A stretch of DNA of 64,000 nt from Nitrospiraceae bacterium (GTDB lineage Bacteria; Nitrospirota; Nitrospiria; Nitrospirales; Nitrospiraceae): NCBI GenBank assembly GCA_035623075.1, contig DASPUC010000015.1, positions 1 through 64,000 of the forward strand. Direction: 5' to 3'. The notes below the pieces were generated by a model. It was not told the DNA's origin and did not search any database. It saw nothing but the letters and a program-made list of their open reading frames with translations. Position 1 is the stretch's first letter, and each line of letters begins with the position of its first letter. Position numbers and translations under genes: made by a program. Positions 3,706-58,266 of the stretch are shown in pieces.

Positions 3706-3786
3706 TTACCGGGACCGGTGTACTAATCGGCTCGGGAAAGAGGTTTGACACCCCGCGAGCCCCGATGGTATTCTTGGCACGCGTCC

Positions 3787-3875
3787 GGAGACAACGGAGT
3801 CTCCATATTAAACCAGCACTTATCACGGACAATGGCGTCCTCGGTCCTCTCTTGGGATTGAGGGCGTTTTTTTTT
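3787..3875 (+). promoter_or_regulatory. ANTAR-type two-hexaloop antitermination leader 1
   Basis: P1 is stem GGAGAC/GTCTCC with loop AACGGA (3787-3804). P2 is stem GGAC/GTCC with loop AATGGC (3827-3840). Both six-base loops have A at position 1 and G at position 4, the known requirement for ANTAR protein recognition. The P2 right arm overlaps the left arm of an intrinsic terminator (3836-3847 with 3855-3866, then nine T), so P2 and the terminator exclude each other. It precedes nadE-amtB-glnB-glnD-glnA. The structure is visible in the sequence; the binding protein (NasR/NasT type) is inferred and not encoded in the window. Confidence 0.82.
3836..3875 (+). terminator. Intrinsic terminator of leader 1
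   Basis: A 12-bp stem with G-U pairs (CGTCCTCGGTCC with GGATTGAGGGCG), a 7-base loop and a run of nine T at 3867-3875. It lies upstream of a coding operon rather than downstream, as expected for an attenuator. Confidence 0.8.
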
Positions 3876-5823: not shown

Positions 5824-7155
5824 ATGACAAGCCTGCATCGATCTTGGCTGTGGGTCAGCACAATGCTCATGAATCTGATCCTTTGGGCACCGATCGTCAC
5901 TGCCGAAGAAATGAGCCCTCGTTTGCCTCCGGGCGGAATCGACAGCGGCGATACGGCCTGGATGTTGGCGGCCTCGGCTTTGGTGCTGGGCATGATTATT
6001 CCCGGCATGGTGTTCTTCTATGGCGGATTGGTTCGCAGCAAGAACGTGATCGGGACGATGGTCCAGGCGTTCGCCATTCTCTGCGTGGTCAGTGTGCTCT
6101 GGGTGGTCTGTGGCTACAGTCTGGCGTTCGGGCCGGATCGTGGCGGCGTCATCGGCGGGCTCGATTGGGTGGGACTATCCGGCGTCGGTGCAATGCCCCA
6201 CCCGGTTTACGCACCGACAGTCCCGCACGAAGCCTTCATGCTGTTTCAAATGCTCTTTGCCGCCTTTACGCCGGTACTGATCGCCGGAGCATTCGCCGAG
6301 CGGATGAAATTCGGAGCGACTGTGTTGTTTGCCGCCCTGTGGTCCCTGTTCGTCTACGTGCCCCTAGCGCACTGGGTGTGGGGCGGAGGGTGGCTCAGTA
6401 AGTTGGGTGTGCTCGATTTTGCCGGAGGGACGGTTGTGCACATCAGTTCCGGTGTGAGTGCGCTGGCCTGCGCGATGGTGCTGGGTAAGCGTCGCGGGTG
6501 GCGGACCGATTACATGGCGCCGCATAATCTTCCGTTCGTTCTCCTCGGTGCCGGATTGCTTTGGTTGGGGTGGTTCGGGTTTAACGGCGGCAGTGCCCGA
6601 GGGGCGAATGCCGTGGCGATCGGCGCCGTGACGGTAACCCATGTGACAGCGGCGTCGGCAGCGCTGGCGTGGATGATCGTCGAGTGGCAACACCGGGGAA
6701 AGCCGACGGTGCTTGGGATTGCCAGTGGAGCGGTGGCCGGACTGGCCACCTCCACGGCCGGAGCCGGTTATCTCGGTCCGGGATCGGCCATGCTTGTGGG
6801 TATTGCAGCCGGTCTGTGCTCTTACGCCGCAATTGTTTGGAAGGGAAAGATCGGCTATGATGACAGCCTTGACGTCATGGGAACCCATGGCGTCGGCGGA
6901 ATTCTCGGGACCCTGGCGGTCGGGCTCTTTGCTTCGAAAGCCGTGAATCCTTCCGCATCAGACGGACTGTTCTTCGGAAATTCCGGTCAGTTCGGAATTC
7001 AGACCGTGGCGGTGGCAGCCGCTGTTATTTTTGCCTTTGTCGGGACATACTTGATTCTAAAGCTGGTCGAGGGTGGGATGGGATTGCGCGTCTCGCCGGA
7101 AGAAGAAGCCACAGGTCTGGATCTCACACAGCATAATGAGCGTGCGTATTCATAA
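5824..7155 (+). CDS. amtB: Ammonium transporter AmtB (copy 1)
   Basis: Trimeric inner-membrane ammonium channel. The start is the ATG at 5824 (MTSLHRSW) because of GAGGAGG directly upstream and the signal-peptide-like N-terminus ending near VTAEE; the open frame extends further upstream but only inside nadE. About 11 transmembrane helices follow. Pore residues are conserved: the Phe-gate context FQMLFAAF, Asp in LDFAGG, first pore His in VVHISSG, GWFGFNGGS and second pore His in MGTHGVGG. The C-terminus GLDLTQHNERAYS is the cytoplasmic tail typical of PII-regulated Amt proteins, and glnB is the next gene, the classic amtB-glnB pairing. Two further amtB paralogues lie at 15965 and 17565; this copy and copy 2 share the C-terminal tail. 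Confidence 0.96.
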   Translation: MTSLHRSWLWVSTMLMNLILWAPIVTAEEMSPRLPPGGIDSGDTAWMLAASALVLGMIIPGMVFFYGGLVRSKNVIGTMVQAFAILCVVSVLWVVCGYSLAFGPDRGGVIGGLDWVGLSGVGAMPHPVYAPTVPHEAFMLFQMLFAAFTPVLIAGAFAERMKFGATVLFAALWSLFVYVPLAHWVWGGGWLSKLGVLDFAGGTVVHISSGVSALACAMVLGKRRGWRTDYMAPHNLPFVLLGAGLLWLGWFGFNGGSARGANAVAIGAVTVTHVTAASAALAWMIVEWQHRGKPTVLGIASGAVAGLATSTAGAGYLGPGSAMLVGIAAGLCSYAAIVWKGKIGYDDSLDVMGTHGVGGILGTLAVGLFASKAVNPSASDGLFFGNSGQFGIQTVAVAAAVIFAFVGTYLILKLVEGGMGLRVSPEEEATGLDLTQHNERAYS

Positions 7156-7252: not shown

Positions 7253-10287
<3,035 letters not shown>

Positions 10288-10335: not shown

Positions 10336-11745
10336 ATGAACGTTCGTGAGGTGTTGGAGTTTGCAAAGAAGAACAAGGTCCAGATTGTGGACCTCAAGTT
10401 TGTCGATCTCATCGGGACTTGGCAGCATTTCAGCATCCCCGTCAATGAATTGACGGAGGGGCTGTTCAAGGACGGGTCGGGAATGGACGGGTCATCCATC
10501 CGAGGGTGGAAGGCCATCAACAACAGCGACATGCTGGTCGTGCCGGACCCCGCCACAGCCTTCCTCGATCCTTTTTGTTCCGTGCCGACGTTGAGTCTGG
10601 TCGGCAATGTCGTCGACCCCATTTCCAGGGAAACCTACGACCGCGATCCGCGATTCATCGCCCAAAAGGCGGAGAAACATCTGCAAAGCACCAAGATCGG
10701 GGACATCTCCTATTGGGGACCAGAGGCCGAATTCTTCATCTTCGACCAGGCCCGCTACGACCAGACCAGTCACAGCGGCTATTACTTCATCGATTCGGAG
10801 GAAGGCGTCTGGAACTCAGGGCAGGAAGGGTTCAACCTGGGTGGAAAAATCCGCCACAAGGAGGGCTACTTCCCCGTGCCCCCGACCGATACCCAGCAGG
10901 ACATCCGGAGCGAGATGATCCTCGAGATGGAGAAGGCCGGAATCGAGATCGAGAAACATCACCACGAGGTCGCAACGGCCGGGCAGGCTGAAATTGACAT
11001 TCGGTTCGATTCGCTGGTCAGGACGGCCGACAAGATGATGATGTACAAGTACGTCGTCAAAAACGTCGCGCGCCGTCACGGGAAAACCGCGACGTTCATG
11101 CCGAAACCAATCTTCGGGGACAACGGGTCCGGCATGCACACCCACCAGAGCATTTGGAAGGAAGGCAAACCGCTGTTCGCCGGCAAGGAATATGCGGGTG
11201 TGTCGCAGATCTGCCTCCATTACATCGGCGGAATCTTAAAACATGCGCCGGCTCTGGCGGCCTTTACGAATCCATCGACGAATTCTTATAAACGCCTGAC
11301 ACCTGGCTTCGAAGCGCCGGTGTTATTGGCCTATTCGAGCCGCAACCGTTCTGCCGGCATCAGGATCCCGATGTATTCCCCCAGTCCCAAGGCGAAGCGG
11401 ATCGAAGTGCGGTTCCCTGATCCTGCCTGCAACCCTTATCTCTCGTTTGCCGCCATGCTGATGGCGGGATTGGACGGGATTGAGAACAAGATCAATCCGG
11501 GAGAACCGGCTGAAAAGGATCTCTACGATCTCGAGCCCAAGGAAGCAGCGAAGATCCGGACGATGCCGGGCAGTTTGGACGAAGCGTTGACTAATCTAGA
11601 GCGGGATCATCAATTCCTCCTGAAGGGCGGGGTTTTCTCGGAGGATCTGATCGATGCTTGGATCGGCTACAAGCGCAGCAAGGAAGTTGATACCATGCGA
11701 CTACGGCCGCATCCATACGAGTTCTTCCTGTATTACGACGTGTAA
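10336..11745 (+). CDS. glnA: Glutamine synthetase type I
   Basis: Dodecameric enzyme that makes glutamine from glutamate, ammonium and ATP. The 469-residue length is standard for GSI-beta. [30 protein letters not shown] and NRSAGIRIP motifs are present. Tyr397, the adenylylation target, is at exactly residue 397 (DLYDLEP), which fits regulation by a GlnE-type adenylyltransferase; two GlnE-like proteins are encoded at 32953-37021. A strong AAAGGAGGAGG lies just upstream of the ATG. It ends the nadE-amtB-glnB-glnD-glnA series and is followed within 80 bp by two tandem ANTAR-type leaders for the cyanate genes. Confidence 0.98.
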
Positions 11746-11821
11746 GGAGGTCTCGTCCTCTTGTAAAAGATGGGTTGACGGGTCAAGGAGAACCATGGTA
11801 CAAGTTCCGTCCAGGAGCTGA

Positions 11822-11912
11822 CTCGGGGCAATGACGCTTCGAGAGAGGCTCGTGAAAATCGAGCACGGACAATGGCGTCCGTCATTCTGAAAAGAGTGAC
11901 GGACGCTTTTTT
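11822..11912 (+). promoter_or_regulatory. ANTAR-type antitermination leader 2a (first of tandem pair)
   Basis: P1 is an 8-bp stem CTCGGGGC/GCTTCGAG with loop AATGAC (11822-11843). P2 is a 6-bp stem ACGGAC/GTCCGT with loop AATGGC (11865-11882). Both loops have A1 and G4. The P2 right arm is inside the left arm of a very strong terminator, GCGTCCGTCA (11875-11884) with TGACGGACGC (11897-11906), extended to 14 bp with a GAAA tetraloop and followed by six T. This is the clearest of the four leaders. Confidence 0.88.
11875..11912 (+). terminator. Intrinsic terminator of leader 2a
   Basis: A 14-bp stem capped by GAAA (11889-11892) with TTTTTT at 11907-11912. It could also terminate read-through from glnA. 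Confidence 0.88.
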
Positions 11913-11930
11913 ATTACGCCATATCTAAGG

Positions 11931-12031
11931 CTGGAGACGGCGATGTCTCCAGGGATGGGGTAGATGCTATCCCATCGTGTCGGACAATGACGTCCTTTCC
12001 CGCTTGAGCGGGAGAGGGCGTTTTCTTTTTT
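11931..12031 (+). promoter_or_regulatory. ANTAR-type antitermination leader 2b (second of tandem pair)
   Basis: P1 candidate: 8-bp perfect stem CTGGAGAC/GTCTCCAG with loop GGCGAT (11931-11952); the loop has G4 but G rather than A at position 1. P2: GGAC/GTCC with loop AATGAC (11982-11995), A1 and G4 present. The P2 right arm overlaps a 13-bp terminator stem. A further hairpin GATGGG...CCCATC lies between P1 and P2. It follows leader 2a directly and precedes the cyanate transporter operon. Confidence 0.78.
11991..12031 (+). terminator. Intrinsic terminator of leader 2b
   Basis: CGTCCTTTCCCGC (11991-12003) pairs with GCGGGAGAGGGCG (12008-12020) over 13 bp with a TTGA loop, followed by TTTTCTTTTTT. 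Confidence 0.85.
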
Positions 12032-12106: not shown

Positions 12107-13429
12107 ATGTCGAATAGGCGCAGTAACAGCACGGACAACGTAAACCCGCACGAGTCTGTAATACCGTCCTCCGAGGAGTACTTTGACCGAACGATGGAAC
12201 AATCCGTCGTTGCAGCGGTGTTGCAAGCTGCGGGGCCGACGCGTCGGCAATTGCTGGCAGGGCTTGGCGGAGCTGCGTTGGTCACCCTGATCGGAGAGGT
12301 ACTTCCGCTCGACAAGCTCAATGCCTTCGCGGCCGATCCGGTCGGAAAGCCGGAAAAGAAGGACGTCGTGGTCGGCTTCATCCCGATCACCTGCGGGACT
12401 CCCATCATCATGGCGGAGCCTTTGGGGTTCTACAAGAAACACGGACTCAACGCGTCGGTGAAACGGGCCGCGGGCTGGGCAATGATCCGAGACTGGGCCG
12501 TGAACAAGGAAGTTGACGCGGCCCACATGCTGACGCCCATGCCGCTGGCGATCACGTTGGGGGCCGGATCAGTACCGACACCCATCTACATGCCCGCGGT
12601 CGAGAACATCAACGGACAGGCGATTACGCTGCACATCAAGCACAAAGGTGTCAAGACGGCGGCGGATATGAAGGGCTTCCGGTTTTGCGTGCCGTTCGAT
12701 TTCTCCATGCACAATTACCTGCTTCGGTATTTCCTGGCTGAAGGCGGGGTCCATCCTGACAAGGATGTGCAGATTCGTGTTGTGCCGCCGCCCGAAATGG
12801 TGGCAAACCTTAAAGCCGGAAACGTGGACGGGTATCTGGGACCGGATCCGTTCAATCAGCGCGCCGTCTACGAAAACGTCGGGTTCATCTACAAACTGTC
12901 CAAGGAGATCTGGGACCGGCATCCCTGTTGCGCCTTTACCGTGACCAAAGAATTCGCGACGACATACCCAAACACGTTTCTTGCTATGTGGCGGGCAATC
13001 GTGGACGCGACTCATTACGCGTCCGACCCGTCGCACCGGAAGGAAATCGCGGCAGCAATCGCCCCGACCAATTATCTCAACCAGCCCGTGACGGTTTTGG
13101 AACAGGTGTTGACCGGTACCTATGCCGACGGACTCGGCGCGATCAAGAAAGAACCGAACCGGATCGATTTCGATCCGTATCCCTGGCATTCCATGGCGAT
13201 TTGGATCATGACCCAAATGAAGCGCTGGGGCCATCTCAAAGGAGACGTGAACTATAAAGCGGTTGCGGAACAGGTCTATCGTGCTGCCGATTGCGATCGC
13301 ATCGCGAAGGAACTCGGCTACCCGACGCATCAATCGACGAGTATGAAACACACGATCATGGGCAAGGTGTTCGACCCGGACCAAGCCGACGCCTACGTGA
13401 AGAGTTTTGCCATCCATAGCATGGCGTAA
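12107..13429 (+). CDS. Periplasmic solute-binding protein of cyanate/nitrate ABC transporter
   Basis: NrtA/CmpA/CynA-family binding protein, 440 residues. It captures the anionic substrate in the periplasm and passes it to the permease encoded next. A twin-arginine signal lies around residues 46-76 (TRRQLLAGLGGAAL ... NAFAADP), preceded by an unusually long hydrophilic leader of about 45 residues. The mature part has the family segments VVGFIPITCGTPIIMAEPLG and YLGPDPFNQRAVYE. It is followed by permease, ATPase and cyanase genes, so the substrate is most likely cyanate; nitrate, nitrite or bicarbonate uptake is a family alternative. Transcription should depend on the tandem ANTAR-type leaders just upstream. 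Family certain, substrate inferred. Confidence 0.88.
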   Translation: MSNRRSNSTDNVNPHESVIPSSEEYFDRTMEQSVVAAVLQAAGPTRRQLLAGLGGAALVTLIGEVLPLDKLNAFAADPVGKPEKKDVVVGFIPITCGTPIIMAEPLGFYKKHGLNASVKRAAGWAMIRDWAVNKEVDAAHMLTPMPLAITLGAGSVPTPIYMPAVENINGQAITLHIKHKGVKTAADMKGFRFCVPFDFSMHNYLLRYFLAEGGVHPDKDVQIRVVPPPEMVANLKAGNVDGYLGPDPFNQRAVYENVGFIYKLSKEIWDRHPCCAFTVTKEFATTYPNTFLAMWRAIVDATHYASDPSHRKEIAAAIAPTNYLNQPVTVLEQVLTGTYADGLGAIKKEPNRIDFDPYPWHSMAIWIMTQMKRWGHLKGDVNYKAVAEQVYRAADCDRIAKELGYPTHQSTSMKHTIMGKVFDPDQADAYVKSFAIHSMA

Positions 13430-13456
13430 CGGGCCCAGCCCACGAGAGGACATTTG

Positions 13457-14344
13457 ATGCCGAGCGGAACACAAAACAATCCGTGGTTGATCTCAGGATT
13501 TCTCCTCACGGTGTTTGTCCTGGGGTGGCATTTTTTTACGATGAGGCCGACGTTTGATGCGCGGGGTATGTCTGAGGAACAACTCCAACTGATGGAATTC
13601 AATGGCGACATCGTCAGAACGTCTGACGGTGGATATACGTGGAATCCGGAAAAGGAAAAAGTGAAGGGAGTGCCCGGTCCCTTGGCGGTACTGGAAAAGG
13701 CCAGGACCGAGCTGGCCGAGGCGTTCGAGAAAAAAGGAACGAACGACCATGGGATCGCGTATTTGGTGGGGTATACGGTCTCGCGGTTCGCCGCGGGATT
13801 TCTCGCGGCCTCGATCGTCGCCATCATGCTGGGCATTCTGCTCGGGCTGAACAAAGTCCTGTTTCGCGCGGTCAATCCGTACATTCAGATTCTCAAGCCG
13901 ATCTCTCCGTTAGCATGGATGCCCTTGTTGCTGTATACGGTGAAGGACCCGAAATGGACGGCGGTGCTCGTGGTCTTCATGGCGGCGCTCTGGCCCACCC
14001 TGGCCACGACGGCGTTTGGGGTCAATTCGTTGCGGAAGGACTACTTGCATGTCGCTGCCATTCTGCAACTCTCCTGGATTAAGCGGCTTTTCAAAGTCAT
14101 CCTGCCGGGAGCGGCACCGACCATCGTTAACGGCCTGCGGATTTCATTCGGAAGCGCACTCGTAGCGGTTGTGCCGGCCGAGATGCTGCTGGGAGAACTG
14201 GGCGTCGGCTACTTGAGCTGGATCGAATGGAATAACCTCGACATCGCGGGGGTGATTTTTGCGATCCTGGTGGTCGGGTTCGTCGGAGTGATCCTGGATT
14301 CAGGGTTTAACAAGCTGGCGGGTCTGGTTACGTACCAGGAGTGA
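13457..14344 (+). CDS. ABC transporter permease (cyanate/nitrate type)
   Basis: Inner-membrane permease of the NrtB/CynB family, about 295 residues. An N-terminal anchor (residues ~9-26) is followed by a hydrophilic segment of about 70 residues (rich in Glu/Lys, 28-95) before the transport core with five further helices; that spacer is longer than in most NrtB proteins. The core shows the LKPISPLAWMPLLLY and RISFGSALVAVVPAEML segments of the family, with the EAA-type loop between them. The ATG at 13457 follows GAGAGGA; a TTG three bases earlier is a poorer start. It lies 27 bp after the binding-protein gene in the same operon. Confidence 0.9.
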   Translation: MPSGTQNNPWLISGFLLTVFVLGWHFFTMRPTFDARGMSEEQLQLMEFNGDIVRTSDGGYTWNPEKEKVKGVPGPLAVLEKARTELAEAFEKKGTNDHGIAYLVGYTVSRFAAGFLAASIVAIMLGILLGLNKVLFRAVNPYIQILKPISPLAWMPLLLYTVKDPKWTAVLVVFMAALWPTLATTAFGVNSLRKDYLHVAAILQLSWIKRLFKVILPGAAPTIVNGLRISFGSALVAVVPAEMLLGELGVGYLSWIEWNNLDIAGVIFAILVVGFVGVILDSGFNKLAGLVTYQE

Positions 14345-14351
14345 GCGGTGA

Positions 14352-14423
14352 AGCCATCAGCAATCAGCAGTCAGCGCGGATCTCTTCAGCTGATAGCTGA
14401 GCGCCGAAGGCTGACAGCTGTGT
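14352..14423. repeat. Intergenic hairpin repeat (AGCTGATAGCTGA type)
   Basis: Run of CAGCAATCAGCAGTCAGCGC followed by CAGCTGATAGCTGAGCGC and GGCTGACAGCTG, able to fold back on itself, between the permease and ATPase genes. A related copy is at 19190-19248. Confidence 0.55.
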
Positions 14424-14437
14424 CCAAGGATTAATCC

Positions 14438-15322
14438 ATGGCCTTTCTTCAAGTCGATCATGCGACCAAATATTTCCCGAACCCGTCGGGAGAGGGGGAG
14501 GTCTGCATTTTCAGGGACGTGACGATCAAGATCGAGAAGGGTGAATTCGTCACAACCATCGGCCATTCCGGTTGCGGCAAGAGCACGTTGCTGAACATCA
14601 TCGCCGGTTTGGAGACGATGTCCGAAGGCGGCGTCATACTCAACGGACGGGAAGCATCGGGTCCGGGGTTGGACCGCATGGTCGTCTTTCAGAACTTCGC
14701 GCTCATGCCGTGGATGACGGTGTTTGAAAACATCGCATTGGCGGTCCGGTCGGCCTATCCGGATTGGAACCGCGAGCAAGTGACTGCGCATGTTCATAAA
14801 TATATTGCCTTGGTGGGACTCACAGGGGCTGAGAACAAACGACCGACGGCCCTCTCGGGTGGCATGAAGCAACGGGTCGGGTTGGCGCGAGCCTTCTCGA
14901 TCGAGCCGAAAGTGTTGTTGTTGGATGAGCCGTTCGCCCAAATCGATGCGTTGACCAGAGGGGTGATTCAGGAGGAACTGATCCAAATGTGGAACACCTC
15001 CCGAAACACCGTCTTCATGGTCACCCACGACGTGGATGAGGCTATCTTGCTGTCCGACCGTATCATGCTCATGACCAACGGTCCGGAGGCGCGCATCGCG
15101 GAAATTGTCGACGTGACGGTTCCACGGCCTCGTTCGCGTGCGACCATCATCGAGCACCCGCATTACTATCGAATCAGAAATCACATCATTCATTTCCTGG
15201 TTCGACACGCAAAGCATGAACCGAGCGATGAGGCCACGCCGGCAGAGGCCTCTGTCAGCGTGGCTCCAGTGGAAGTGAATTTCGAGAAAGAATCACCTCG
15301 TGCGCAGCTCACGGTGCTGTAG
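14438..15322 (+). CDS. ABC transporter ATP-binding protein (cyanate/nitrate type)
   Basis: NrtD/CynD-type ATPase, 294 residues, that powers the transporter encoded upstream. Walker A GHSGCGKST (residues ~44-52), the Q-loop region VVFQNFALMPW, signature LSGGMKQRV, Walker B VLLLDEP and the switch His in MVTHDVDEA are all present. The C-terminal ~60 residues after HFLVRHAK are low-complexity (EATPAEASVSVAPVE) and not needed for ATPase function. It lacks the extra NrtA-like C-terminal domain of NrtC. cynS follows after 27 bp, which supports cyanate as substrate. Confidence 0.92.
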   Translation: MAFLQVDHATKYFPNPSGEGEVCIFRDVTIKIEKGEFVTTIGHSGCGKSTLLNIIAGLETMSEGGVILNGREASGPGLDRMVVFQNFALMPWMTVFENIALAVRSAYPDWNREQVTAHVHKYIALVGLTGAENKRPTALSGGMKQRVGLARAFSIEPKVLLLDEPFAQIDALTRGVIQEELIQMWNTSRNTVFMVTHDVDEAILLSDRIMLMTNGPEARIAEIVDVTVPRPRSRATIIEHPHYYRIRNHIIHFLVRHAKHEPSDEATPAEASVSVAPVEVNFEKESPRAQLTVL

Positions 15323-15349: not shown

Positions 15350-15790
15350 ATGGAGAAGGATGCGGTGAGAAAGGCGATCAAGGCGAAGCGACTCGCCAAA
15401 AAAGTCACGATTGCGGACGTCGCTAAAGCTGTCGGGAGGAATCCAACGTTCGTGGCAGCGGTGTTGCAGGGGAATCACAAACTGCCGGCAGAGGAAGCGA
15501 AAAAGGTCGGCGATCTGTTGGGCCTGGATGCTGAATTGACCACCTCGTTGAGCAAGTTCCCAGTCCGCACCGATTTCCCGAATACGACTGATCCCTTCAA
15601 GTATCGCTTGATGGAAATCATCGGGGTCTATGGAGATTCGATGCGCGAGCAGGCAAACGAAATGTTCGGCGACGGCATCATGAGCGCGATCGACTTCACG
15701 CTGGACATGGAAAAAGTGACGGGCAGTCAAGGAGAAGCCCGGTGCAAGATCACGCTGAACGGCAAGTGGCTGGAGTACAAAACGTTCTAA
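15350..15790 (+). CDS. cynS: Cyanate hydratase (cyanase)
   Basis: Decameric cytoplasmic enzyme converting cyanate and bicarbonate to ammonia and CO2. The 146-residue protein has the N-terminal helical (HTH-like) domain (1-75) and the catalytic C-terminal domain. The three catalytic residues align with the known Arg, Glu and Ser: Arg86 and Glu89 in KYRLMEIIGVYG and Ser112 in FGDGIMSAIDF. AGGAGGA precedes the ATG. It is the last gene of the ABC transporter operon and gives the cell ammonium from cyanate. The next 60 bp lead into another ANTAR-type leader. Confidence 0.98.
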   Translation: MEKDAVRKAIKAKRLAKKVTIADVAKAVGRNPTFVAAVLQGNHKLPAEEAKKVGDLLGLDAELTTSLSKFPVRTDFPNTTDPFKYRLMEIIGVYGDSMREQANEMFGDGIMSAIDFTLDMEKVTGSQGEARCKITLNGKWLEYKTF

Positions 15791-15851
15791 TTCGGAGGAC
15801 CGAAAACCGAAGCGATACAAGAGAGCAACACTGAACGCACGCTGGCGGCAA

Positions 15852-15950
15852 GAGCTGGGACGATGAAGTCCTCGGCTCGTACCCTCCGTACCATGCAAAT
15901 CGGACAAGGGCGTCCGTCATTCGTTTTGAGTGGTGGGCCCCTTTCTGTTT
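15852..15950 (+). promoter_or_regulatory. ANTAR-type antitermination leader 3
   Basis: P1: 10-bp stem with one bulged T, GAGCTGGGAC/GTCCTCGGCTC, loop GATGAA (15852-15878); G4 is present but position 1 is G. P2: CGGAC/GTCCG with loop AAGGGC (15901-15916), A1 and G4 present. The P2 right arm lies in a weaker terminator-like stem, 15912-15922 with 15928-15938 (11 bp, several G-U), followed by CCCTTTCTGTTT. It precedes amtB2 and the amtB3-Rieske-cytochrome operon. Confidence 0.72.
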
Positions 15951-15964
15951 GTGGAGTTGATGCG

Positions 15965-17326
15965 ATGACGGTCAAGAGAACGGAGCGGCTCATGTGGACA
16001 TGGATGGGAACGTGGGTACGAACGGCGATGTTCGCCGCAGGTCTGGGAGTCATCGCGCCGGAATTGAGCCGGGCGGAGACGGGCACGCTGGGAGCGGGGG
16101 TGTTAACGATGAGTGGAGCGGATACCGCATGGGTGTTGATTTCTTCCGCACTGGTGTTGGCGATGATCGTCCCCGGTTTAGCGTTGTTCTACGGTGGGCT
16201 GGTACGGAGCAAGAACGTTCTTGGCACGATCATGCACAGTTTTGTGATCTTGTGCCTCGTCAGTCTGCTGTGGGTATTGGGGGGCTATAGTCTGGCCTTC
16301 GGTCCGGACGTGAGGGGGCTGATCGGTAACCTCGACTGGGTCGGCTTGAGCGGAGTCGGGCTGACTCCCCATGCGACCTATGGGCCGACGATCCCGCATC
16401 AGGCCTTCATGGTCTTTCAACTGATGTTTGCGGCGATCACTCCTGCCCTGATTACCGGAGCCTTTGCCGAACGGATGAAGTTCAGCGCGCTACTGATCTT
16501 TTCCGCACTCTGGTCTCTTCTCATCTATTGCCCCATCGCCCATTGGCTGTGGGGAGGCGGCTGGCTGGCGGGATTGGGAGCGCTGGACTTTGCCGGCGGT
16601 GCGGTCGTGCACATCAGTTCGGGAATCAGCGCCTTGGTCTGTGCGTTGGTCCTGGGATCTCGCCAGGGGTACGGAGTGGATTACATGGCGCCGCACAACC
16701 TGCCGATGGTGCTGTTGGGAACAGGACTCCTGTGGTTCGGATGGTTCGGATTTAACGCGGGCAGCGCACTAGGTGCCAATGAGACCGCCGTCGTTGCATT
16801 TGTGGCGACGCATACCGCTGCAGTCACGGCGGCGCTGGGCTGGATGGCAGTCGAATGGTGGCATCGTGGCGCGCCTACCGTCCTCGGCATCGCCAGCGGT
16901 GCCATCGCTGGATTAGCCATGGTCACGCCGGGGGCTGGATATGTCAGCCCGTTTTCCGCGCTCCTGATCGGGCTGGTTGCCGGCGGGCTCTCCTACCTTG
17001 CCATCATGAAGAAGGGGCGGTTTGGCTATGACGACTCTCTGGATGTGGTCGGGATTCACGGTGTCTCCGGCGTGGTGGGTATTCTCATGACCGGTGTCCT
17101 GGCCTCCAAAGCGGTAAATCCAGGAGGTGCGGATGGATTGATGTTTGGGAACGCGGCGTTCTTCGGCGCGCAGGTTCTGACGGCCATGGTTGTCGTCGTG
17201 TTCTCCGCTCTCGGGACGTTCGTCATTCTCAAGCTTGTCGATCGGGCGGTCGGGCTGCGCGTTCAGCCGGAAGAAGAACGAATGGGCCTCGATATCAGCC
17301 AACACAACGAACGGGCTTACTCATAG
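15965..17326 (+). CDS. amtB: Ammonium transporter AmtB (copy 2)
   Basis: Second AmtB paralogue, about 453 residues from the ATG at 15965, which has GGAG eight bases upstream. The open frame extends up to 15863 but that part lies inside leader 3, so it should not be translated. The N-terminus is a signal peptide (to about ELSRAE), then 11 transmembrane helices. Conserved pore features are FQLMFAAIT (Phe gate), LDFAGGAVVHISSG (Asp and first pore His), GWFGFNAGS and VGIHGVSG (second pore His). The C-terminal GLDISQHNERAYS tail matches copy 1, suggesting PII control. It is very similar in organisation to copy 1 and probably arose by duplication. Confidence 0.95.
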   Translation: MTVKRTERLMWTWMGTWVRTAMFAAGLGVIAPELSRAETGTLGAGVLTMSGADTAWVLISSALVLAMIVPGLALFYGGLVRSKNVLGTIMHSFVILCLVSLLWVLGGYSLAFGPDVRGLIGNLDWVGLSGVGLTPHATYGPTIPHQAFMVFQLMFAAITPALITGAFAERMKFSALLIFSALWSLLIYCPIAHWLWGGGWLAGLGALDFAGGAVVHISSGISALVCALVLGSRQGYGVDYMAPHNLPMVLLGTGLLWFGWFGFNAGSALGANETAVVAFVATHTAAVTAALGWMAVEWWHRGAPTVLGIASGAIAGLAMVTPGAGYVSPFSALLIGLVAGGLSYLAIMKKGRFGYDDSLDVVGIHGVSGVVGILMTGVLASKAVNPGGADGLMFGNAAFFGAQVLTAMVVVVFSALGTFVILKLVDRAVGLRVQPEEERMGLDISQHNERAYS

Positions 17327-17346
17327 AAGGAGGAGGTATGAACATA

Positions 17347-17568
17347 ATGTCACTGGAGAGGACTGACAGATCCGCGAGTGAGCAACGACTCCTGGAAGTG
17401 CTGCGCGAAAATGGGCCACAGACGCTCGAAAGCCTGTGCACGCTTCCCGATATGAGTTGGGCGCAGGTACTGATGGCGGTGGATCATCTCAGCCGGTCTC
17501 GCGAGGTGGCCATTGAGCTGATCGCACCCAGCGAGTACCAAGTGTCTCTGAGTGTGGCGAACGCATGA
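17347..17568 (+). CDS. Small winged-helix-like protein between amtB genes
   Basis: A 73-residue protein (76 if translated from the ATG at 17338). I prefer 17347 because the strong GGAGGAGG ends only one base before the first ATG but about ten bases before the second. The sequence reads like a small winged-helix/MarR-type fold: a helix EQRLLEVLRENG, a helix ESLCTLPDMSWAQVLMAVDHLSRS, then a beta wing REVAIELIAPSEYQVSL. I do not recognise a named family. It overlaps amtB3 by four bases, so it is made together with that transporter. A DNA-binding or adaptor role is possible; no function can be assigned. Confidence 0.75.
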   Translation: MSLERTDRSASEQRLLEVLRENGPQTLESLCTLPDMSWAQVLMAVDHLSRSREVAIELIAPSEYQVSLSVANA

Positions 17569-18737
17569 CGCAGTTCTCCGATCAGACGTTGTGGCTATTG
17601 ATTTCCACGACATTGCTGGTGCTGACCGTGCCGGGCGTTGCCCTTTTCTACGGCGGCATGGTGCGGAAGAAGAACGTCATGAACACCATCGCGCTGCCGT
17701 TCGTCGCGCTGGCGCTTGTCTCCATTGAATGGGGACTCTTCGGCGATGCGCTGGCGTTCGGCCGAGAGACAGGCAGCCCGATTGGTCGCGAGGCAGGTAT
17801 GGAGCCGTTGCGGCTGGTGTATCACGGGATGATGGCAGCGATTGCGTTGGCATTAGTGGCCGGGGGAATCGTGGAACGAGTTCGATTTTCATTTTTTCTT
17901 CTCTTCGGGCTGCTGTGGGTCGTTGCTGTGTTCATTCCGTTGGCGCATTGGTTCTGGGGAAACGGGTGGCTGGCCAATTCGGGAGGACTCGATTTCGCCG
18001 GCGGTGCCGTGATTCACATCAGTGCCGGCGTCAGCGCGTTAGTGGCGGCGATGGTGATCGGTCCCCGCAAAGGGTATGGACGAATCGAAATGATGCCAAA
18101 CCATCTGCCCTTCTCATTCTGCGGAGCGGCCTTGATGTGGGTGGGCTGGTTCGGGTTCACGGGTGCCCATGCCGCGACGTCGATGGCGACGGCCACCGGC
18201 GCGTTTGTGGCAATTCAGATGTCGGCGGTCGCGGCTTCGCTGACCTGGATGGCGGTGGAGTGGCTGCAGCGGGACAAGCCGACGGCGTTAGGAACGGTGA
18301 GCGGAGCGGTCGCAGGACTCGTGGCGATCTCTCCTGGCGCTGGTTACGTGAGCCCCCTTTCAGCGATCGTGATCGGGATAGGGGCGGGGGGGTTCTGCTA
18401 CATGGTCGTCAATTACGTCAAATTGATTCTGAGCTACGACGATTCGTTGGATGTCTTCGGTATGCACGGCGTCGGAGGAACGTGGGGCGTGATCGCCACT
18501 GGTCTGTTTGCGTCGACCCAAGTCAACCCGAGTGGAAGCGACGGACTATTCTACGGCTATCCCTATCAATTCTTTATTCAAATGGTCGCCGCACTCGTCG
18601 CATGGACGGTGGCCGGGATAATGAGCTGGGTGTTGGTCAGAGCGCTCATGTTGATCCTGTCGCCGCGCGTGGATGAAGAGGCCGAGATCATGGGGCTGGA
18701 CCTCCATCAACACGGAGAGAAAGGATACACAGGGTAA
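17565..18737 (+). CDS. Divergent ammonium transporter family protein (copy 3)
   Basis: Amt/MEP/Rh-family channel of 390 residues without a signal peptide, starting MTQFSDQTLW. Both pore histidines are kept (GGAVIHISAG and FGMHGVGG), as is the Asp of LDFAGG. The external recruitment site differs from copies 1 and 2: the Phe-gate position aligned with E. coli Phe107 reads Met (YHGMMAAIA) and the position aligned with Ser219 reads His (GWFGFTGAHA). The tail ends LHQHGEKGYTG. It overlaps the small protein before it and lies 3 bp from the Rieske gene, so it is tied to the redox genes downstream. A different substrate range or a sensory role is possible; this is inference. Confidence 0.9.
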   Translation: MTQFSDQTLWLLISTTLLVLTVPGVALFYGGMVRKKNVMNTIALPFVALALVSIEWGLFGDALAFGRETGSPIGREAGMEPLRLVYHGMMAAIALALVAGGIVERVRFSFFLLFGLLWVVAVFIPLAHWFWGNGWLANSGGLDFAGGAVIHISAGVSALVAAMVIGPRKGYGRIEMMPNHLPFSFCGAALMWVGWFGFTGAHAATSMATATGAFVAIQMSAVAASLTWMAVEWLQRDKPTALGTVSGAVAGLVAISPGAGYVSPLSAIVIGIGAGGFCYMVVNYVKLILSYDDSLDVFGMHGVGGTWGVIATGLFASTQVNPSGSDGLFYGYPYQFFIQMVAALVAWTVAGIMSWVLVRALMLILSPRVDEEAEIMGLDLHQHGEKGYTG

Positions 18738-18740
18738 GCC

Positions 18741-19187
18741 ATGGCCGTTGTTCACGATGATGCCGGTCGACGCCAATTTCTCAGTCAGGCGGTGATGGGG
18801 TTTGGACTCCTGTTCGGCGTGGGGACGCTCGGATTTCGGTTCCTTCAGTTTCTGATGCCGAATCGCCGGGAGCGGCAGGCGGAGACGGTGTTGATCGGCG
18901 CCGAATCCAAGATTCCAATGGGTGAAGCCGTTCCGGTGGATCTCGGAGGCCACAAGATGTTGGTGCTGAGAACGAATGAAGGAACCGTGGCGTTCTCCCG
19001 GCGTTGCACGGACCTTGGGTGTCTCGTCTCCTGGAGCAAAGAGCGGGAGCAATTCGTCTGTCCTTGTCACCAGGGAGTCTTTGACAAGACAGGCCGGAAC
19101 ATCTCCGGACCTCCTCCGCGGCCGCTCGACCGGTTCAACATTATCAAGCGAGGAGAACAGTTGTACGTGAACATCCAGAGCGCATAG
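18741..19187 (+). CDS. Rieske iron-sulfur protein with altered ligand motif
   Basis: Membrane-anchored Rieske-type [2Fe-2S] subunit of a bc/b6f-like complex, 148 residues. The N-terminus carries a twin-arginine-like motif GRRQFLSQ and one transmembrane helix (about 18-38). The second cluster box is canonical (CPCHQG), but the first reads CTDLGC instead of CTHLGC, so the His ligand is replaced by Asp (codon GAC at 19011-19013). The two disulfide cysteines are present. The gene follows amtB3 by 3 bp and precedes cytochrome b. It probably transfers electrons between the quinone pool and the octaheme cytochrome encoded downstream; the altered ligand may change or abolish the usual cluster (inference). 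Confidence 0.9.
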   Translation: MAVVHDDAGRRQFLSQAVMGFGLLFGVGTLGFRFLQFLMPNRRERQAETVLIGAESKIPMGEAVPVDLGGHKMLVLRTNEGTVAFSRRCTDLGCLVSWSKEREQFVCPCHQGVFDKTGRNISGPPPRPLDRFNIIKRGEQLYVNIQSA

Positions 19188-19189
19188 CG

Positions 19190-19248
19190 GTCAGCGTTCA
19201 GCTGTCAGCTTCTCTCAAAGTGCTGATGGCCGATAGCTGAAGGCTAAA
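19190..19248. repeat. Intergenic hairpin repeat (AGCTGATAGCTGA type)
   Basis: CAGCGTTCAGCTGTCAGCTTCT and GCTGATGGCCGATAGCTGAAGGC can pair; same type as 14352-14423. It lies between the Rieske and cytochrome b genes. Confidence 0.5.
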
Positions 19249-19273
19249 TGCATGGCATGGCAGGAAGGCATAA

Positions 19274-20296
19274 ATGACAACTCAAGCAGCACAGACCGAA
19301 AAGCCCGTCGGAGAGAAGAGCTGGATTGACTACATCCAGAAGGATCTGCCCGAGCATCTGGAATGGTGGCCCTACACGTTGGGCGCGATTCCGCTCACGC
19401 TCTTCGGGATTCTCGTCGCGACCGGCCTGCTGTTGACGTTCTACTATGTGCCCTCGCCGGAGAAGGCGTACGAAAGCGTCGATCAGATCACGAACGAGGT
19501 CTATCTCGGATGGTTTGTGCGGGGGCTGCACAAGACCTCCGTGGACCTCATGATTCTGTTCTTGCTCTTCCATGTGATCAGAGTGTTTCTCACGCGCGCC
19601 TATCGAGCGCCGGGGGAATTGAAGTGGGTCAGCGGGTCGATCGTGTTGTTCGTGACGTTTGCGATGGGGTTTACCGGTTATTCGCTCGTGTTCGATAACG
19701 TCTCGTATTGGGGCATGACGGTCGTCACCAACATGATCGGTACGCTTCCCGTGGTCGGGACTCCCTTGTTGTATCTGTTACGGGGTGGTGAAGAAGTGTC
19801 CGGCGTCACGCTGCTGAGGCTCTACGATCTCCATACGAAACTCTTGCCCGTGCTACTAGGAGGCCTGGTCATCGGCCATATCGTGGTTGTGCGCTTGATG
19901 GGGTTTGCGGACGTAAAAGGAAGCCGCCACTTCCATCCATTTTATCCCGAGCACACCTTGAAGATGGGGGCCATCGCCGTCGGGCTGCTGGTGCTGATCG
20001 TCGACATCGTCATGATCTTCCCGCCGGTGCTCGGACCTCCGGCCAATCCGCAGGAGGTGGCGTCGGATGTTTCACCTCCCTGGTATTTCTCCGCTCCATA
20101 CATGTGGATTTCATTGTTGCCTGGACCGATGGCCCTGTGGAGTCTGATGGCAGGAGCCGGTCTGTTCGTTGTGTACCCGTTCGTTGACCGGGCTCTGGTT
20201 GAACGAGGATGGCCGATGGAGTTGGTGAATGCAGTCGTTGCCGCCGTGGCTGTCGCGGCGATGGTGGTCCTTATGTACTTGGATATGAAGATGTAA
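19274..20296 (+). CDS. Cytochrome b (b6-type) of Rieske/cytochrome b complex
   Basis: Integral membrane di-heme cytochrome b, 340 residues. Four heme-ligand histidines are visible in two helices: RGLHKTSVDL...LLFHVIR (13 residues apart) and YDLHTKLLPV...VIGHIVV (14 residues apart). The 14-residue spacing in the second pair is that of b6f-type cytochromes. The quinol-oxidation loop reads PPWY rather than the common PEWY. The C-terminal part adds three further helices, so b6 and subunit IV-like regions are fused. Placed between the Rieske and octaheme cytochrome genes, it likely moves electrons between membrane quinones and the octaheme protein. Confidence 0.93.
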   Translation: MTTQAAQTEKPVGEKSWIDYIQKDLPEHLEWWPYTLGAIPLTLFGILVATGLLLTFYYVPSPEKAYESVDQITNEVYLGWFVRGLHKTSVDLMILFLLFHVIRVFLTRAYRAPGELKWVSGSIVLFVTFAMGFTGYSLVFDNVSYWGMTVVTNMIGTLPVVGTPLLYLLRGGEEVSGVTLLRLYDLHTKLLPVLLGGLVIGHIVVVRLMGFADVKGSRHFHPFYPEHTLKMGAIAVGLLVLIVDIVMIFPPVLGPPANPQEVASDVSPPWYFSAPYMWISLLPGPMALWSLMAGAGLFVVYPFVDRALVERGWPMELVNAVVAAVAVAAMVVLMYLDMKM

Positions 20297-20299
20297 CAA

Positions 20300-20373
20300 G
20301 AGGCTAGGGGCGAGGGGCGAGAGGGAAGAGAGCTGTTTCCGAACCCCTAGCCCCTTGCCTCGCGCCTCTCGCC
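20300..20373. repeat. Intergenic hairpin repeat, family A
   Basis: GGCGAGAGG (20316-20324) pairs with CCTCTCGCC (20365-20373); GAGGCTAGGGGC on the left resembles the inverse of CCCCTAGCCCC on the right. It lies between cytochrome b and the octaheme gene. Confidence 0.7.
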
Positions 20374-20392
20374 GTTTGGTAAGGAGGCCCAG

Positions 20393-21811
20393 ATGGGTGA
20401 GTTCACTACAGAGCACAGCAACAACGACGATAGCCGTTCGAGTAACGGGAAGAAAAACTTCACCCGCTACATGATCGGTGGCCTGTGCTTGATCTTGTTT
20501 CTGGCTCTGACCGGAGTCGGCTACGTCCAGGTCGAAGAGCGCCGTGGCGGCGGCCTCAGACCGTTCGTTTCGGCTGAGAACAAGAAGTGTATCGATTGCC
20601 ATACGACCAAGGATGTGGCGGTCGGTGGCATCAACGATTGGAAAGTCAGTCGCCATGCGCCGAAGGGAATCGGGTGCGTGGAGTGCCATCGCGCCGAGAA
20701 AGGCGACGCCGATGCCTATGATCATGAGGGGTTCTTGATCTCCACACTGGTGACGCCGAAAGATTGCATGCGTTGCCATGACAGAGAGGCCAAGGAGTTT
20801 GGCAAATCCCATCACGCGAAGGCGGCCCAGTTTACCGGTTCACTCGACAATTTCCTCGGCAATGTCGTGGAAGGGCCGGAAATCGTGACGACTGGGTGCG
20901 CGGGCTGTCATGGAAGCATCATCAAAATGATGGAAAACGGCAAGCTGCACCCTGCCACATGGCCGAATTCGGGCATTGGCCGGGTCAACCCCGACGGATC
21001 CAAAGGCACCTGTTCGGCGTGTCACGCGCGACACAGTTTTTCGATCGCTCAGGCGCGGCAGCCGGAGAGCTGTGGCCGCTGTCATATGGGACCGGATCAT
21101 CCGCAGATCGAGGCCTACTACGAGAGCAAGCACGGCGTGATGTACGAAGCGAATAAGGAAAAATTGAAGCTCGCGGATCCGTCGGAGAAATGGCATCCGG
21201 GAAAAGATTATCTCTATCCGACCTGCGCCACGTGCCATATGAGCGCCACCACGACTCAGGAAGTCACCCACGACGTCGGGGATCGCATCAGTTGGACTCT
21301 CCGCCCGGTGATCTCAACCAGGCTGGAGAATTACGAGGACCGGCGGAAAGCGATGAGACAAGTCTGCTCTTCCTGTCACAGCGAGCAGATCGTGGACCGG
21401 TTCTTCACCTCGATGGACGAGGGCATTAATTTGTACAACGACAAATTCGGCAAGCCGGCGAAAGCGGCGATGGACAAACTGCTGGCTCTGAAGAAGATCA
21501 CGCCGACGCCGTACGATGAAAAGATCGAATGGGTGTTCTATGAACTCTGGCACCACGAGGGGCGGCGGGCCAGACACGGACTTTCCAAGGTGGCGCCGGA
21601 CTATGTGCACTGGCAGGGCTTCTACGAGGTGGCCAAGAGTTTCTACACCAAGTTCCTGCCGTTGGTACGAGAGCTGTCACCGCAGGTGGCCGAAGAGATG
21701 CTTCGCACTGAGGGCCACAGGTGGGTCGAGAAGGGCCTGACCAAAGAGGAGATCGCCGACATGGTCCAGTTCTATGAGAAGGAGATGCAGGGGAAACGCG
21801 GAGGCGGCTGA
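20393..21811 (+). CDS. Octaheme cytochrome c, HAO family, membrane-anchored
   Basis: Multiheme c-type cytochrome of 472 residues with one N-terminal transmembrane anchor (about 24-46) and exactly eight CXXCH motifs, whose first cysteines are residues 66, 95, 125, 169, 207, 227, 278 and 325. The order and the CGRCHMGPDHPQ segment match the hydroxylamine oxidoreductase (HAO)/octaheme nitrite reductase superfamily. No CXXCK heme is present. A C-terminal PDYVHWQGFYE segment (Tyr404) lies where, as I recall, oxidative HAOs carry their cross-linking Tyr; I could not verify the alignment. Context with ammonium and cyanate genes and an ANTAR leader suggests assimilatory nitrite reduction to ammonium with electrons from quinol, but hydroxylamine or NO chemistry is possible. 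Confidence 0.9.
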   Translation: MGEFTTEHSNNDDSRSSNGKKNFTRYMIGGLCLILFLALTGVGYVQVEERRGGGLRPFVSAENKKCIDCHTTKDVAVGGINDWKVSRHAPKGIGCVECHRAEKGDADAYDHEGFLISTLVTPKDCMRCHDREAKEFGKSHHAKAAQFTGSLDNFLGNVVEGPEIVTTGCAGCHGSIIKMMENGKLHPATWPNSGIGRVNPDGSKGTCSACHARHSFSIAQARQPESCGRCHMGPDHPQIEAYYESKHGVMYEANKEKLKLADPSEKWHPGKDYLYPTCATCHMSATTTQEVTHDVGDRISWTLRPVISTRLENYEDRRKAMRQVCSSCHSEQIVDRFFTSMDEGINLYNDKFGKPAKAAMDKLLALKKITPTPYDEKIEWVFYELWHHEGRRARHGLSKVAPDYVHWQGFYEVAKSFYTKFLPLVRELSPQVAEEMLRTEGHRWVEKGLTKEEIADMVQFYEKEMQGKRGGG

Positions 21812-21820
21812 AGAAGAAAG

Positions 21821-21945
21821 ACGGAACAACTGGGGAGTGCCTTCTTTGCTCGCCCACCGCGCACACATGAACAGTCAGACTTTCCATGGAAGTGGGCGGT
21901 GCTCGATGGATGCGCGCAGTTGAGGACACTCCCCAGTTGTTCCGT
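21821..21945. repeat. 3'-UTR hairpin element, copy 1
   Basis: Perfect 19-bp inverted repeat: 21821-21839 (starts ACGGAAC, ends GGGAGTG) with 21927-21945. The enclosed core contains TGCTCGC, CACATGAAC, GTGCTCGATG and GCGCGCAGTTGA, shared with the copies at 48928, 53026 and 60540. It starts 10 bases after the octaheme stop codon and could act as a terminator or RNA-stabilising structure. The core here is longer than in the other copies. Confidence 0.75.
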
Positions 21946-55936: not shown

Positions 55937-58201
55937 GTGAGCGTGACGCTGCCAGTGATTACCAAAGACCTCATCGCGCAGCACAATCTGACCGACGACG
56001 AGTACAAAAAGATCGTCGAGATTTTGGGGCGCGAGCCCAATTTGACCGAACTCGGCATGTTCTCCGTCATGTGGTCGGAGCACTGTTCCTATAAAAGTTC
56101 GCGCGTGCATTTGAAAAAGCTGCCGACGACAGGACCGCGGGTGGTGCAGGGGCCTGGGGAGAACGCTGGTGCAGTGGATATCGGCGACGGGCTCTGCGTC
56201 GTCTTTAAGATGGAATCACACAACCATCCTTCGTTCATCGAACCGTATCAGGGAGCCGCGACGGGAGTGGGAGGGATTCTGCGCGATATCTTCACGATGG
56301 GTGCGCGGCCGATTGCGTTGCTTGATTCGTTGCGCTTTGGGGAATTGGAGACGGCGAAGAATCGTCACTTGATGAAGGGCGTTGTGGCCGGCATCGCAGG
56401 CTATGGCAATTGCATGGGTGTGCCGACGGTGGGTGGCGAGATCGCGTTTAACGATATTTATTCGCTGAACCCGCTGGTGAACGTGTTCTGTCTCGGTGTT
56501 GCGGAGAAGAACAAGATTTTCCGTGGCACTGCGGCAGGGGTCGGCAATCCGGTCATCTATTTCGGTTCGAAGACAGGACGAGACGGCATTCACGGGGCGA
56601 CGATGGCCTCCGATTCGTTCGACGACGAATCCGAACAGAAACGGCCGACCGTGCAGGTCGGCGATCCCTTTACGGAGAAGCTCTTGTTGGAGGCCTGCCT
56701 TGAACTGATGGCGAATGATCTCCTGGTCGGCATTCAGGACATGGGAGCCGCGGGGCTGACCAGTTCGTCCTGCGAAATGGCCTCGCGCGCCGGCAACGGG
56801 ATTGAGTTGGATCTGACGCACGTACCACGTCGCGAGCCTGGCATGACACCCTATGAACTCATGCTCTCCGAGTCGCAAGAGCGGATGCTCATGGTGGCGA
56901 AAGCAGGCAAAGAAGACGAGTGCATCCGAATCTGCAAGAAGTGGGATCTCGATGTAGCAGTGGTGGGTCGCGTGACCGGTGATGGGATGCTCCGGGTAAA
57001 GGATCAGGGCAAAGTTGTGGCGGAGATTCCCGCGAAGTCGCTCGCCGATGATGGGCCTCGCTACGAGCGGCCCTACTCACCACCCGCGTATCAAGACATG
57101 TTGACAGGGTTGAACTACGATGCCATTCCGGATGTGAAGGATGCCACTGCGGCCCTCCTCTCGTTGCTGGCGTCGCCAACGATTGCGAGCAAGCACTGGG
57201 TCTATGAACAGTACGACCACATGGTGCGGACGAACACGATGGTCCGGCCAGGATCAGACGCAGCAGTCGTGCGGATCAAAGGCACGAACAAGGCTGTCGC
57301 GATAACGGTCGATTGCAACAGTCGTTATTGCCTCCTGCATCCCTATGAAGGGGCTCGACTTGCCGTGGCTGAAGCGGCGAGGAATCTGGTGTGTTCCGGC
57401 GCTGAGCCGATCGGGCTGACGGATTGTCTGAACTTTGGCAATCCCGAACGACCGGACATCATGTGGCAGTTTGTCTTGGCGATCGAGGGGATGAAAGATG
57501 CCTGTGAACATTTCGGTGTGCCGATCGTCAGCGGAAACGTCAGCTTCTACAATGAAACGAATGGGCTGTCGATCTATCCGACCCCGATGCTGGGGATGGT
57601 GGGGTTAATCGAGCAGGCTGATCAAACGGTGACTCAATGGTTCAAGCAAACAGGTGATGTGATTCTGCTTGTGGGCAAGACACGAGAAGATCTGGGGGGG
57701 AGTGCATACCTGAAAGTGCTGCACCATCGAGAACAGGGTTCTCCTCCGTTGCTCAATCCCGACACAGAGCATGCGCTCCATCAATTTATACTGAAAGTGA
57801 TTCGTGAGGGACTCGTTCGATCTGCCCATGATTGCTCTGATGGAGGATTGGCCGTGACGCTCGCCGAATGTTGCGTGTCGGAGCCGGGCGATGGACTGGG
57901 GGCTGTGATAAGATTATCTCTCGACGGCTTGCGACGTGATGCGCTCTTGTTCGGTGAAAGCCAGTCCCGCGTGGTCCTGTCGGTCAAGGCAGACGTTGCC
58001 GAGCAGGTGCTCAACCGGGCGTGGGATGCGGGCATTCTGGCAGCCAAGATCGGGACAGTCGGCAGGGACCGCTTGGTGATCGAGGTGCAGGGGGACGAAC
58101 GTTCGACCGGCTGTCGCATCGACGTTGAGATTCGGACGTTGCGAGACCGTTGGGCGAATTCGATCGAACGATCTCTTGATAGGCGAGAGGCGAGGGGCTA
58201 G
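55937..58201 (+). CDS. purL: FGAM synthase catalytic subunit PurL
   Basis: ATP-dependent enzyme forming FGAM, small-type PurL of 754 residues that needs PurS and PurQ. It starts at a GTG preceded by AGGAAGGA. Landmarks are [48 protein letters not shown] and [11 protein letters not shown]. The C-terminal codons run into a family A repeat (final residues SLDRREARG). Confidence 0.97.
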
Positions 58202-58266
58202 AGGCGAGAGGGTGGGAAAGGTTTTTCATTCGATTTCCCCTGGCCTCGTGCCACTTGCCTCGCGCC
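58185..58266. repeat. Intergenic repeat, family A, overlapping purL end
   Basis: GGCGAGAGGCGAGGGGCTAG on the left and GGCCTCGTGCCACTTGCCTCGCGCC on the right. It lies across the purL stop and just before purF, like the copy at the nusB end. Confidence 0.65.

Follow-up and report, generated by a model that had tools for sequence, protein, structure and literature searches.

Koch 2015 is said, in later papers that cite it, to have proposed that the octaheme cytochrome of Nitrospira is coupled to quinones. The locus encoding this cytochrome has since been described in N. moscoviensis and N. japonica, with its synteny and reverse-transcription PCR on record (Ushiki 2018, PMC5767232), and it has been drawn as part of a genomic island together with a stated direct link to quinones (Koch 2018, PMC6311188). 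In N. moscoviensis with nitrite as the sole nitrogen source, the octaheme and the Rieske/cytochrome b pair are highly expressed, as are two of the three ammonium transporters (Mundinger 2019, PMC6606698). In N. japonica the octaheme transcript falls on ammonium addition (PMC7522533), and a survey of 445 genomes places petBC beside most of these octahemes, there called ONRs, and NapC in lineage IV (PMC12342949). Other Nitrospira carry NrfAH, which has been proposed for dissimilatory ammonium formation (PMC5767232). The present analysis concerns the corresponding locus in a stretch of 64,000 nucleotides from a Nitrospiraceae bacterium (positions 1 to 64,000 of contig DASPUC010000015.1, assembly GCA_035623075.1), hereafter the window, which is part of contig C15 of a genome of 3.39 Mb that is 99.9% complete.

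This locus has the same genes, order and proposed function as the N. moscoviensis/N. japonica octaheme-Rieske/cytochrome b locus, and its gene content is no different. It is, we think, quite probably the cassette by which a canonical (non-comammox) Nitrospira reduces nitrite for assimilation, and the same good odds attach to the mechanism as a whole. Nitrite would then be both energy substrate and nitrogen source: a small Rieske/cytochrome b complex would oxidise quinol, and the electrons, with probably no cytochrome c1 or f in between, would reach a membrane-anchored periplasmic octaheme that would carry out the six-electron reduction of nitrite to ammonium. Amt3, perhaps along with Amt2, would return the ammonium to the cytoplasm for glutamine synthetase, and an ANTAR protein would read ANTAR-type leaders so that antitermination controls transcription of the island. 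The catalytic product, the electron path and the role of Amt3 are what we infer; the genes of the cassette were read directly as open reading frames (ORFs) and typed by Pfam/NCBIfam, as follows:

15850..15946, plus strand: leader B, directly before the amt2-wHTH-amt3-Rieske-cytochrome b-octaheme genes, wHTH being the winged-helix gene (covariance model, 78 bits)
15965..17326, plus strand: amt2 (PF00909; start codon inferred)
17338..17568, plus strand: 76-residue winged-helix protein (ORF; conserved; structure model)
17565..18737, plus strand: amt3 (PF00909, 7.6e-101)
18741..19187, plus strand: Rieske [2Fe-2S] protein (PF00355)
19274..20296, plus strand: b6-type cytochrome b, extended to the Qo loop (PF00033/PF13631)
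20393..21811, plus strand: HAO-family octaheme cytochrome c, in the literature ONR or OCC (PF13447)

A first-pass annotation of this DNA had already noted that the winged-helix ORF overlaps amt3 (by 4 nt, ATGA) and that amt3 lies 3 bp from the Rieske gene, both of which can be read from the sequence, and Pfam agrees with its b6-type cytochrome b followed by an eight-heme HAO-family protein. It rightly recognised the winged-helix gene but began it at 17347, which is the second ATG of an ORF starting at 17338. Conservation of the gene order, which it had named as a check, is borne out in N. moscoviensis and many Nitrospira genomes. N. moscoviensis NSP M-1 has glnA-nrtABC-cynS-amt2-wHTH-amt3-Rieske-cytb-octaheme-CBS, as in the window, and its winged-helix/amt3 overlap and amt3-Rieske gap are identical to those of the window. 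In some genomes amt2 sits after the octaheme, and amt3 adjoins the Rieske gene wherever both are readable. The arrangement is thus not a matter of chance, given that N. moscoviensis and other Nitrospira share it.

The octaheme itself scores 107.9 bits against PF13447 (cut-off 21.9; 6.9e-31), and both it and every complete orthologue have eight CXXCH motifs and zero CXXCK, so that it combines the above-threshold profile match and the eight CXXCH by which the HAO-like octaheme family is recognised. It is 81% identical to the N. moscoviensis orthologue, and in a tree the Nitrospira octaheme clade stands apart from comammox HAO with full support. By profile, its best chain in the PDB is 4qo5, the octaheme of the archaeon Ignicoccus hospitalis (1.5e-50), followed by HAOs at about 1e-23, and no ONR chain is found among the 12 PDB sequences matched at E up to 10. 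Among solved structures the Ignicoccus protein is thus the nearest in sequence, the alignment spanning the haem core and the C-terminal part; we know of no Rieske/cytochrome b partner for it. The Thioalkalivibrio ONR (TvNiR) likewise has eight haems and the same proposed reaction, but it carries seven CXXCH and one CXXCK, and the ONR family is defined by that combination, its active site having Tyr, Arg and Cys (PMC5433712). As the octaheme of the window has no CXXCK, the name ONR in the strict Thioalkalivibrio sense does not fit it, and OCC (PMC6311188) is the better name. The lineage IV-type octaheme (PMC12342949; here at L104) is a homologue of about 55% core identity, likewise a proposed quinol-fed nitrite reductase, but with a NapC-type cytochrome instead of Rieske/cytochrome b and with no amt3 orthologue. 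A hydrophobic stretch at the N-terminus suggests that the protein is membrane-anchored. An AlphaFold2 model built from nine orthologues was set aside at a predicted local distance difference test (pLDDT) score of 36.

The first-pass annotation had looked to the absence of nirA and nirBD for support, and had held that a separate assimilatory nitrite reductase, expressed in step with nitrogen limitation, would count decisively against it. Neither gene is present, and that objection does not arise: family profile searches found NirA, NirB and NrfA absent from the 99.9% complete genome. True NirA proteins of other genomes score about 540-577 bits, and there is none here. Certain candidates were considered and rejected. 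The sole NIR_SIR protein is an 833-residue TusA fusion (L028 5087-7588, contig C26) in a cysH-cysD-cysN cluster; the fusion, the sulfate-assimilation neighbours and the presence of such a TusA-fused sulfite reductase in 49/49 Nitrospirales genomes checked, N. moscoviensis included, rule it out as NirA, N. moscoviensis having been reported to be without NirA (PMC6606698). Two weak NrfA matches were likewise ruled out as partial matches to pentaheme-type cytochromes. Since the sole HAO-family gene is the octaheme itself, the genome is not that of a comammox organism, an identity that was considered and discarded on this ground.

The phyletic pattern points in the same direction. A close octaheme is present in 16 of 147 genomes of the order (the one with the window included), and a homologue with about 55% core identity in six of another family, f3; most of the other matches are HAOs at 32-41% identity. 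When 49 genomes were examined further, orthologues of amt3 (66-82% identity) and of this cytochrome b (78-91%) were found in 17/17 of those with a close octaheme and 0/32 of the others; these are counts of genomes rather than of independent events, and since the genomes are related the Fisher p of 1.5e-13 overstates the evidence. NirA is present in 18 of the 20 genomes that have no octaheme match. At L103, the one such locus that was read, the island ends cynS-[wHTH]-nirA, and nirA thus fills the slot of the octaheme cassette there.

Amt3 contains the PF00909 domain and, when aligned to E. coli AmtB chains, keeps the equivalents of Asp160, His168 and His318 expected of an Amt channel, while at the high-affinity vestibule Phe107 is replaced by Met and Ser219 by His. 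These two positions are variable among Amt3 orthologues, and the usual residues are found in Amt1 and Amt2 of this genome. The changes suggest the loss of the periplasmic recruitment site, which would fit a channel placed beside a local source of ammonium. The same loss might instead be seen as the mark of a protein that is mainly an ammonium sensor, not a channel for return of the product, as might the translational overlap with a small winged-helix partner. We regard this as unlikely, though it fares best among the alternatives, and it is a rival at this step alone, with the mechanism otherwise standing either way: the pore histidines and Asp160 are kept, no output domain is fused, and the strict tie of Amt3 to the periplasmic reductase (17/17 versus 0/32) is what one would expect of a transporter. 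Two further observations concern these channels. One amt3 orthologue (L072, genome G118) has an in-frame TAG within the match and is either a pseudogene or a sequence error. In another Nitrospirota family (L149, 3827-7552), genes for an Amt and a NapC-like protein come after a distant octaheme, apparently an independent pairing of octaheme and Amt.

The Rieske protein has intact cluster motifs (CTDLGC...CPCHQG) and an N-terminus with a twin-Arg-like GRRQFL motif and a hydrophobic segment. The best PDB match of the cytochrome b is cytochrome b6 (5e-46); the alignment covers residues 19-212, and both bis-His haem pairs match. Thr stands where b6f has Cys35 for haem c_n. At the Qo site, all orthologues that cover the motif have PPWY instead of PEWY, and the other two cytochromes b of the genome keep PEWY. 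No gene for cytochrome c1 or f is found in the cassette, where the octaheme is the sole other haem protein, and it is therefore reasonable to infer that the Rieske protein passes electrons directly to the octaheme. Quinol as the donor would be in keeping with family knowledge and with the published hypothesis (PMC6311188). As energy could be conserved by way of such a Rieske/cytochrome b pair, and as NrfAH of other Nitrospira has been proposed for a role of this kind (PMC5767232), the octaheme might be thought to make ammonium by energy-conserving dissimilation, with assimilation as a side product. This seems improbable to us, given that the cassette is grouped with glnA, glnK, amt and nrt and not with genes of respiration, and that cells oxidising nitrite aerobically express the system when nitrite is their sole nitrogen source (PMC6606698).

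The reductive direction bears on a further alternative. In oxidative HAO a tyrosine is cross-linked to haem 4 of the next subunit. Reductive HAO-like enzymes are reported to have His at the position of this Tyr (PMC12758564), and two alignments disagree on which residue occupies it here: one pairs Tyr411 with the tyrosine of the HAO TYTVGW motif, whereas the other places His406 at the site. The least probable account, and a very doubtful one, is that the octaheme is oxidative or detoxifying, acting on hydroxylamine or NO and returning electrons to quinone via the Rieske/cytochrome b pair, with nitrogen assimilated otherwise; the Tyr411 pairing and best sequence relatives in the HAO family, some of them oxidative, speak for it, but the genome has no other nitrite-to-ammonium enzyme, the locus is a nitrogen-assimilation island, published expression drops with ammonium (PMC7522533), the nearest PDB chain is the Ignicoccus octaheme and not an HAO, and the second alignment has His406 as in reductive members (PMC12758564).

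Several points nonetheless weigh against assimilatory nitrite reduction by this cassette. Since PPWY replaces PEWY, quinol oxidation at the Qo site is an assumption; since the cross-link alignments disagree, sequence alone leaves room for an oxidative role; and the ONR label is mismatched to the octaheme's own family, CXXCK being absent. The literature searched yielded neither a purified enzyme nor a knockout of this octaheme. Further, NirA is also present in 5/17 octaheme genomes, immediately following the octaheme in four, and the octaheme is therefore not always the sole route. On balance, the quinol-driven, assimilatory conversion of nitrite to ammonium with recovery by Amt, as put forward in the first-pass annotation, is supported in its function by gene context, the lack of another reductase, co-inheritance and published expression, but not in its implied novelty.

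The cassette belongs to a nitrogen-assimilation island that takes up the first 22 kb of the window, in the order urease genes, nadE, amt1, glnK, glnD, glnA, nrtABC-type transporter, cynS, amt2, the 76-residue ORF, amt3, Rieske, cytochrome b, octaheme and a CBS-domain gene; for the urease, gln, nadE and CBS genes, the names were assigned from the ORFs without a family scan. Upstream of leader B lie the following features:

3781..3873, plus strand: weak leader of ANTAR type, upstream of nadE-amt1-glnK-glnD-glnA (R1 covariance model: 35.7 bits; E 2e-4 per genome, and also 1.6e-5)
5956..7155, plus strand: amt1, ammonium channel, start uncertain (ORF; PF00909 match at 5956-7149)
7262-7600: glnK/glnB, downstream of amt1 (ORF)
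10336..11745, plus strand: glnA, glutamine synthetase (ORF; orthologues at the same place in relatives; sequence-based name)
11818..11912, plus strand: leader A, before nrtA (covariance model, 82 bits; hexaloop hairpins AAUGAC at 11830 and AAUGGC at 11871)
12107..15322, plus strand: nrtABC-type nitrate/nitrite (or cyanate) ABC transporter, with binding protein, permease and ATPase (TIGR01184 above cut-off)
15350..15790, plus strand: cynS, cyanase (TIGR00673 above cut-off)

The ANTAR-type leader mentioned without coordinates in the first-pass annotation is real, with covariance-model matches in the window that include one directly before amt2. Rfam gives zero matches in the window. An ANTAR leader is recognised by two A1/G4 hexaloop hairpins of which the second overlaps a terminator. 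Leader A has all of this, its second hairpin overlapping the terminator at 11874-11907, and paired A1/G4 hairpins with a terminator were matched in 1/500 shuffles; leader B has the second hairpin, CGGAC[AAGGGC]GUCCG, and a terminator-like stem, with a degenerate loop (GAUGAA) in hairpin 1. In an alignment of 14 leaders the antiterminator stems covary at 0.307 versus 0.170 for shuffled alignments, 0/500 of which reach this value, and they also exceed every slid control, a signal that arises in the first hairpin; pairing in the terminator is 95%, with hardly any variation. Leaders A and B belonged to the training set of the covariance model, which also scores highly in G076, G118, G002 and G068. 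The leaders of these four lie outside that set, and their best matches are near the octaheme or nirA of the genome concerned. It finds no leader in the comammox genome G102, and the leader motif is shared by nirA-using relatives. Further matches in the genome of the window are a reverse-strand image at 11869-11956 and a weaker one on contig C38. The amt2 ORF opens at ATG 15863, where annotation pipelines may call its start too early; as this codon falls within leader B, ATG 15965 is the more likely start.

The published ANTAR antiterminator motif is widely tied to nitrogen genes, and the leaders here resemble those of the EutV/NasR systems in having two A1/G4 hexaloop hairpins, the second overlapping a terminator, before such genes (PMC3369931). 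They differ in that the sole ANTAR protein of the genome, a GAF-GAF-ANTAR protein on C38 that does not adjoin the island, is without a NIT or receiver domain; it would presumably be the reader of the leaders. Taken together, the leaders suggest that a single antitermination switch may serve the whole island. Two repeats were also noted: an inverted repeat of 24 nt (arms 92% complementary and 77 nt apart) immediately 3' of the octaheme at 21821-21945, with no second copy in the genome, and a GGCTAGGGGCGAGGGGCGAGAGG-like intergenic repeat at 20302-20324, 1262-1284 and 58182-58211, whose recurrence in the window is far above chance and whose first-named copy falls between cytochrome b and the octaheme.

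The 76-residue ORF before amt3 has no Pfam or NCBIfam match. An AlphaFold model from eight orthologues (pLDDT 87) has an H-H-H-strand-strand winged-helix topology, and Foldseek retrieves generic winged helices alone, including MarR-like proteins and DsrD, none below E 0.001. Its conservation across relatives and the confident fold model mark it as a real gene. Homologues stand directly before nirA in 10/20 nirA loci among L080-L099 (L082, L083, L085, L086, L088, L090 and L093-L096), and, being found before both nirA and the amt3 cassette, the ORF is thus tied to nitrite assimilation by either enzyme. A more encompassing view, to which we would give somewhat less than even chances, sees amt3-Rieske-cytb-octaheme as one co-inherited unit, in which a c1-less complex with a modified Qo site would feed the octaheme directly and an Amt variant without the usual periplasmic site would collect the ammonium; an island-wide ANTAR regulon would also control the nirA version in relatives, with the winged-helix protein as a shared extra regulator.

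That no complex of this composition has been characterised, as the first-pass annotation had it, is literally true in that the enzyme is unpurified, but the locus and the hypothesis are published (PMC5767232, PMC6606698, PMC6311188, PMC12342949), and both the locus and its proposed quinone electron route are already on record in that form. The dedicated ammonium channel and the RNA switch, on the other hand, appear not to have been described previously: in the available portions of the N. moscoviensis and N. japonica locus papers there is no word of ANTAR leaders, of the winged-helix ORF, of the co-occurrence of amt3 or of the residues in Amt3 and at the Qo site, and no report of ANTAR leaders in Nitrospira was found in the literature searched. 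What is added to a known locus is thus the linkage and residues of amt3, the PPWY motif, the ANTAR leaders and the winged-helix ORF, with amt3 being tied to the octaheme and not to nitrogen assimilation in general. In the absence of ambient ammonium, nitrite oxidisers must derive all of their ammonium from their own energy substrate, and the cassette offers a testable answer as to how this may be wired to quinones, how the charged product may be recovered and how the whole may be regulated.

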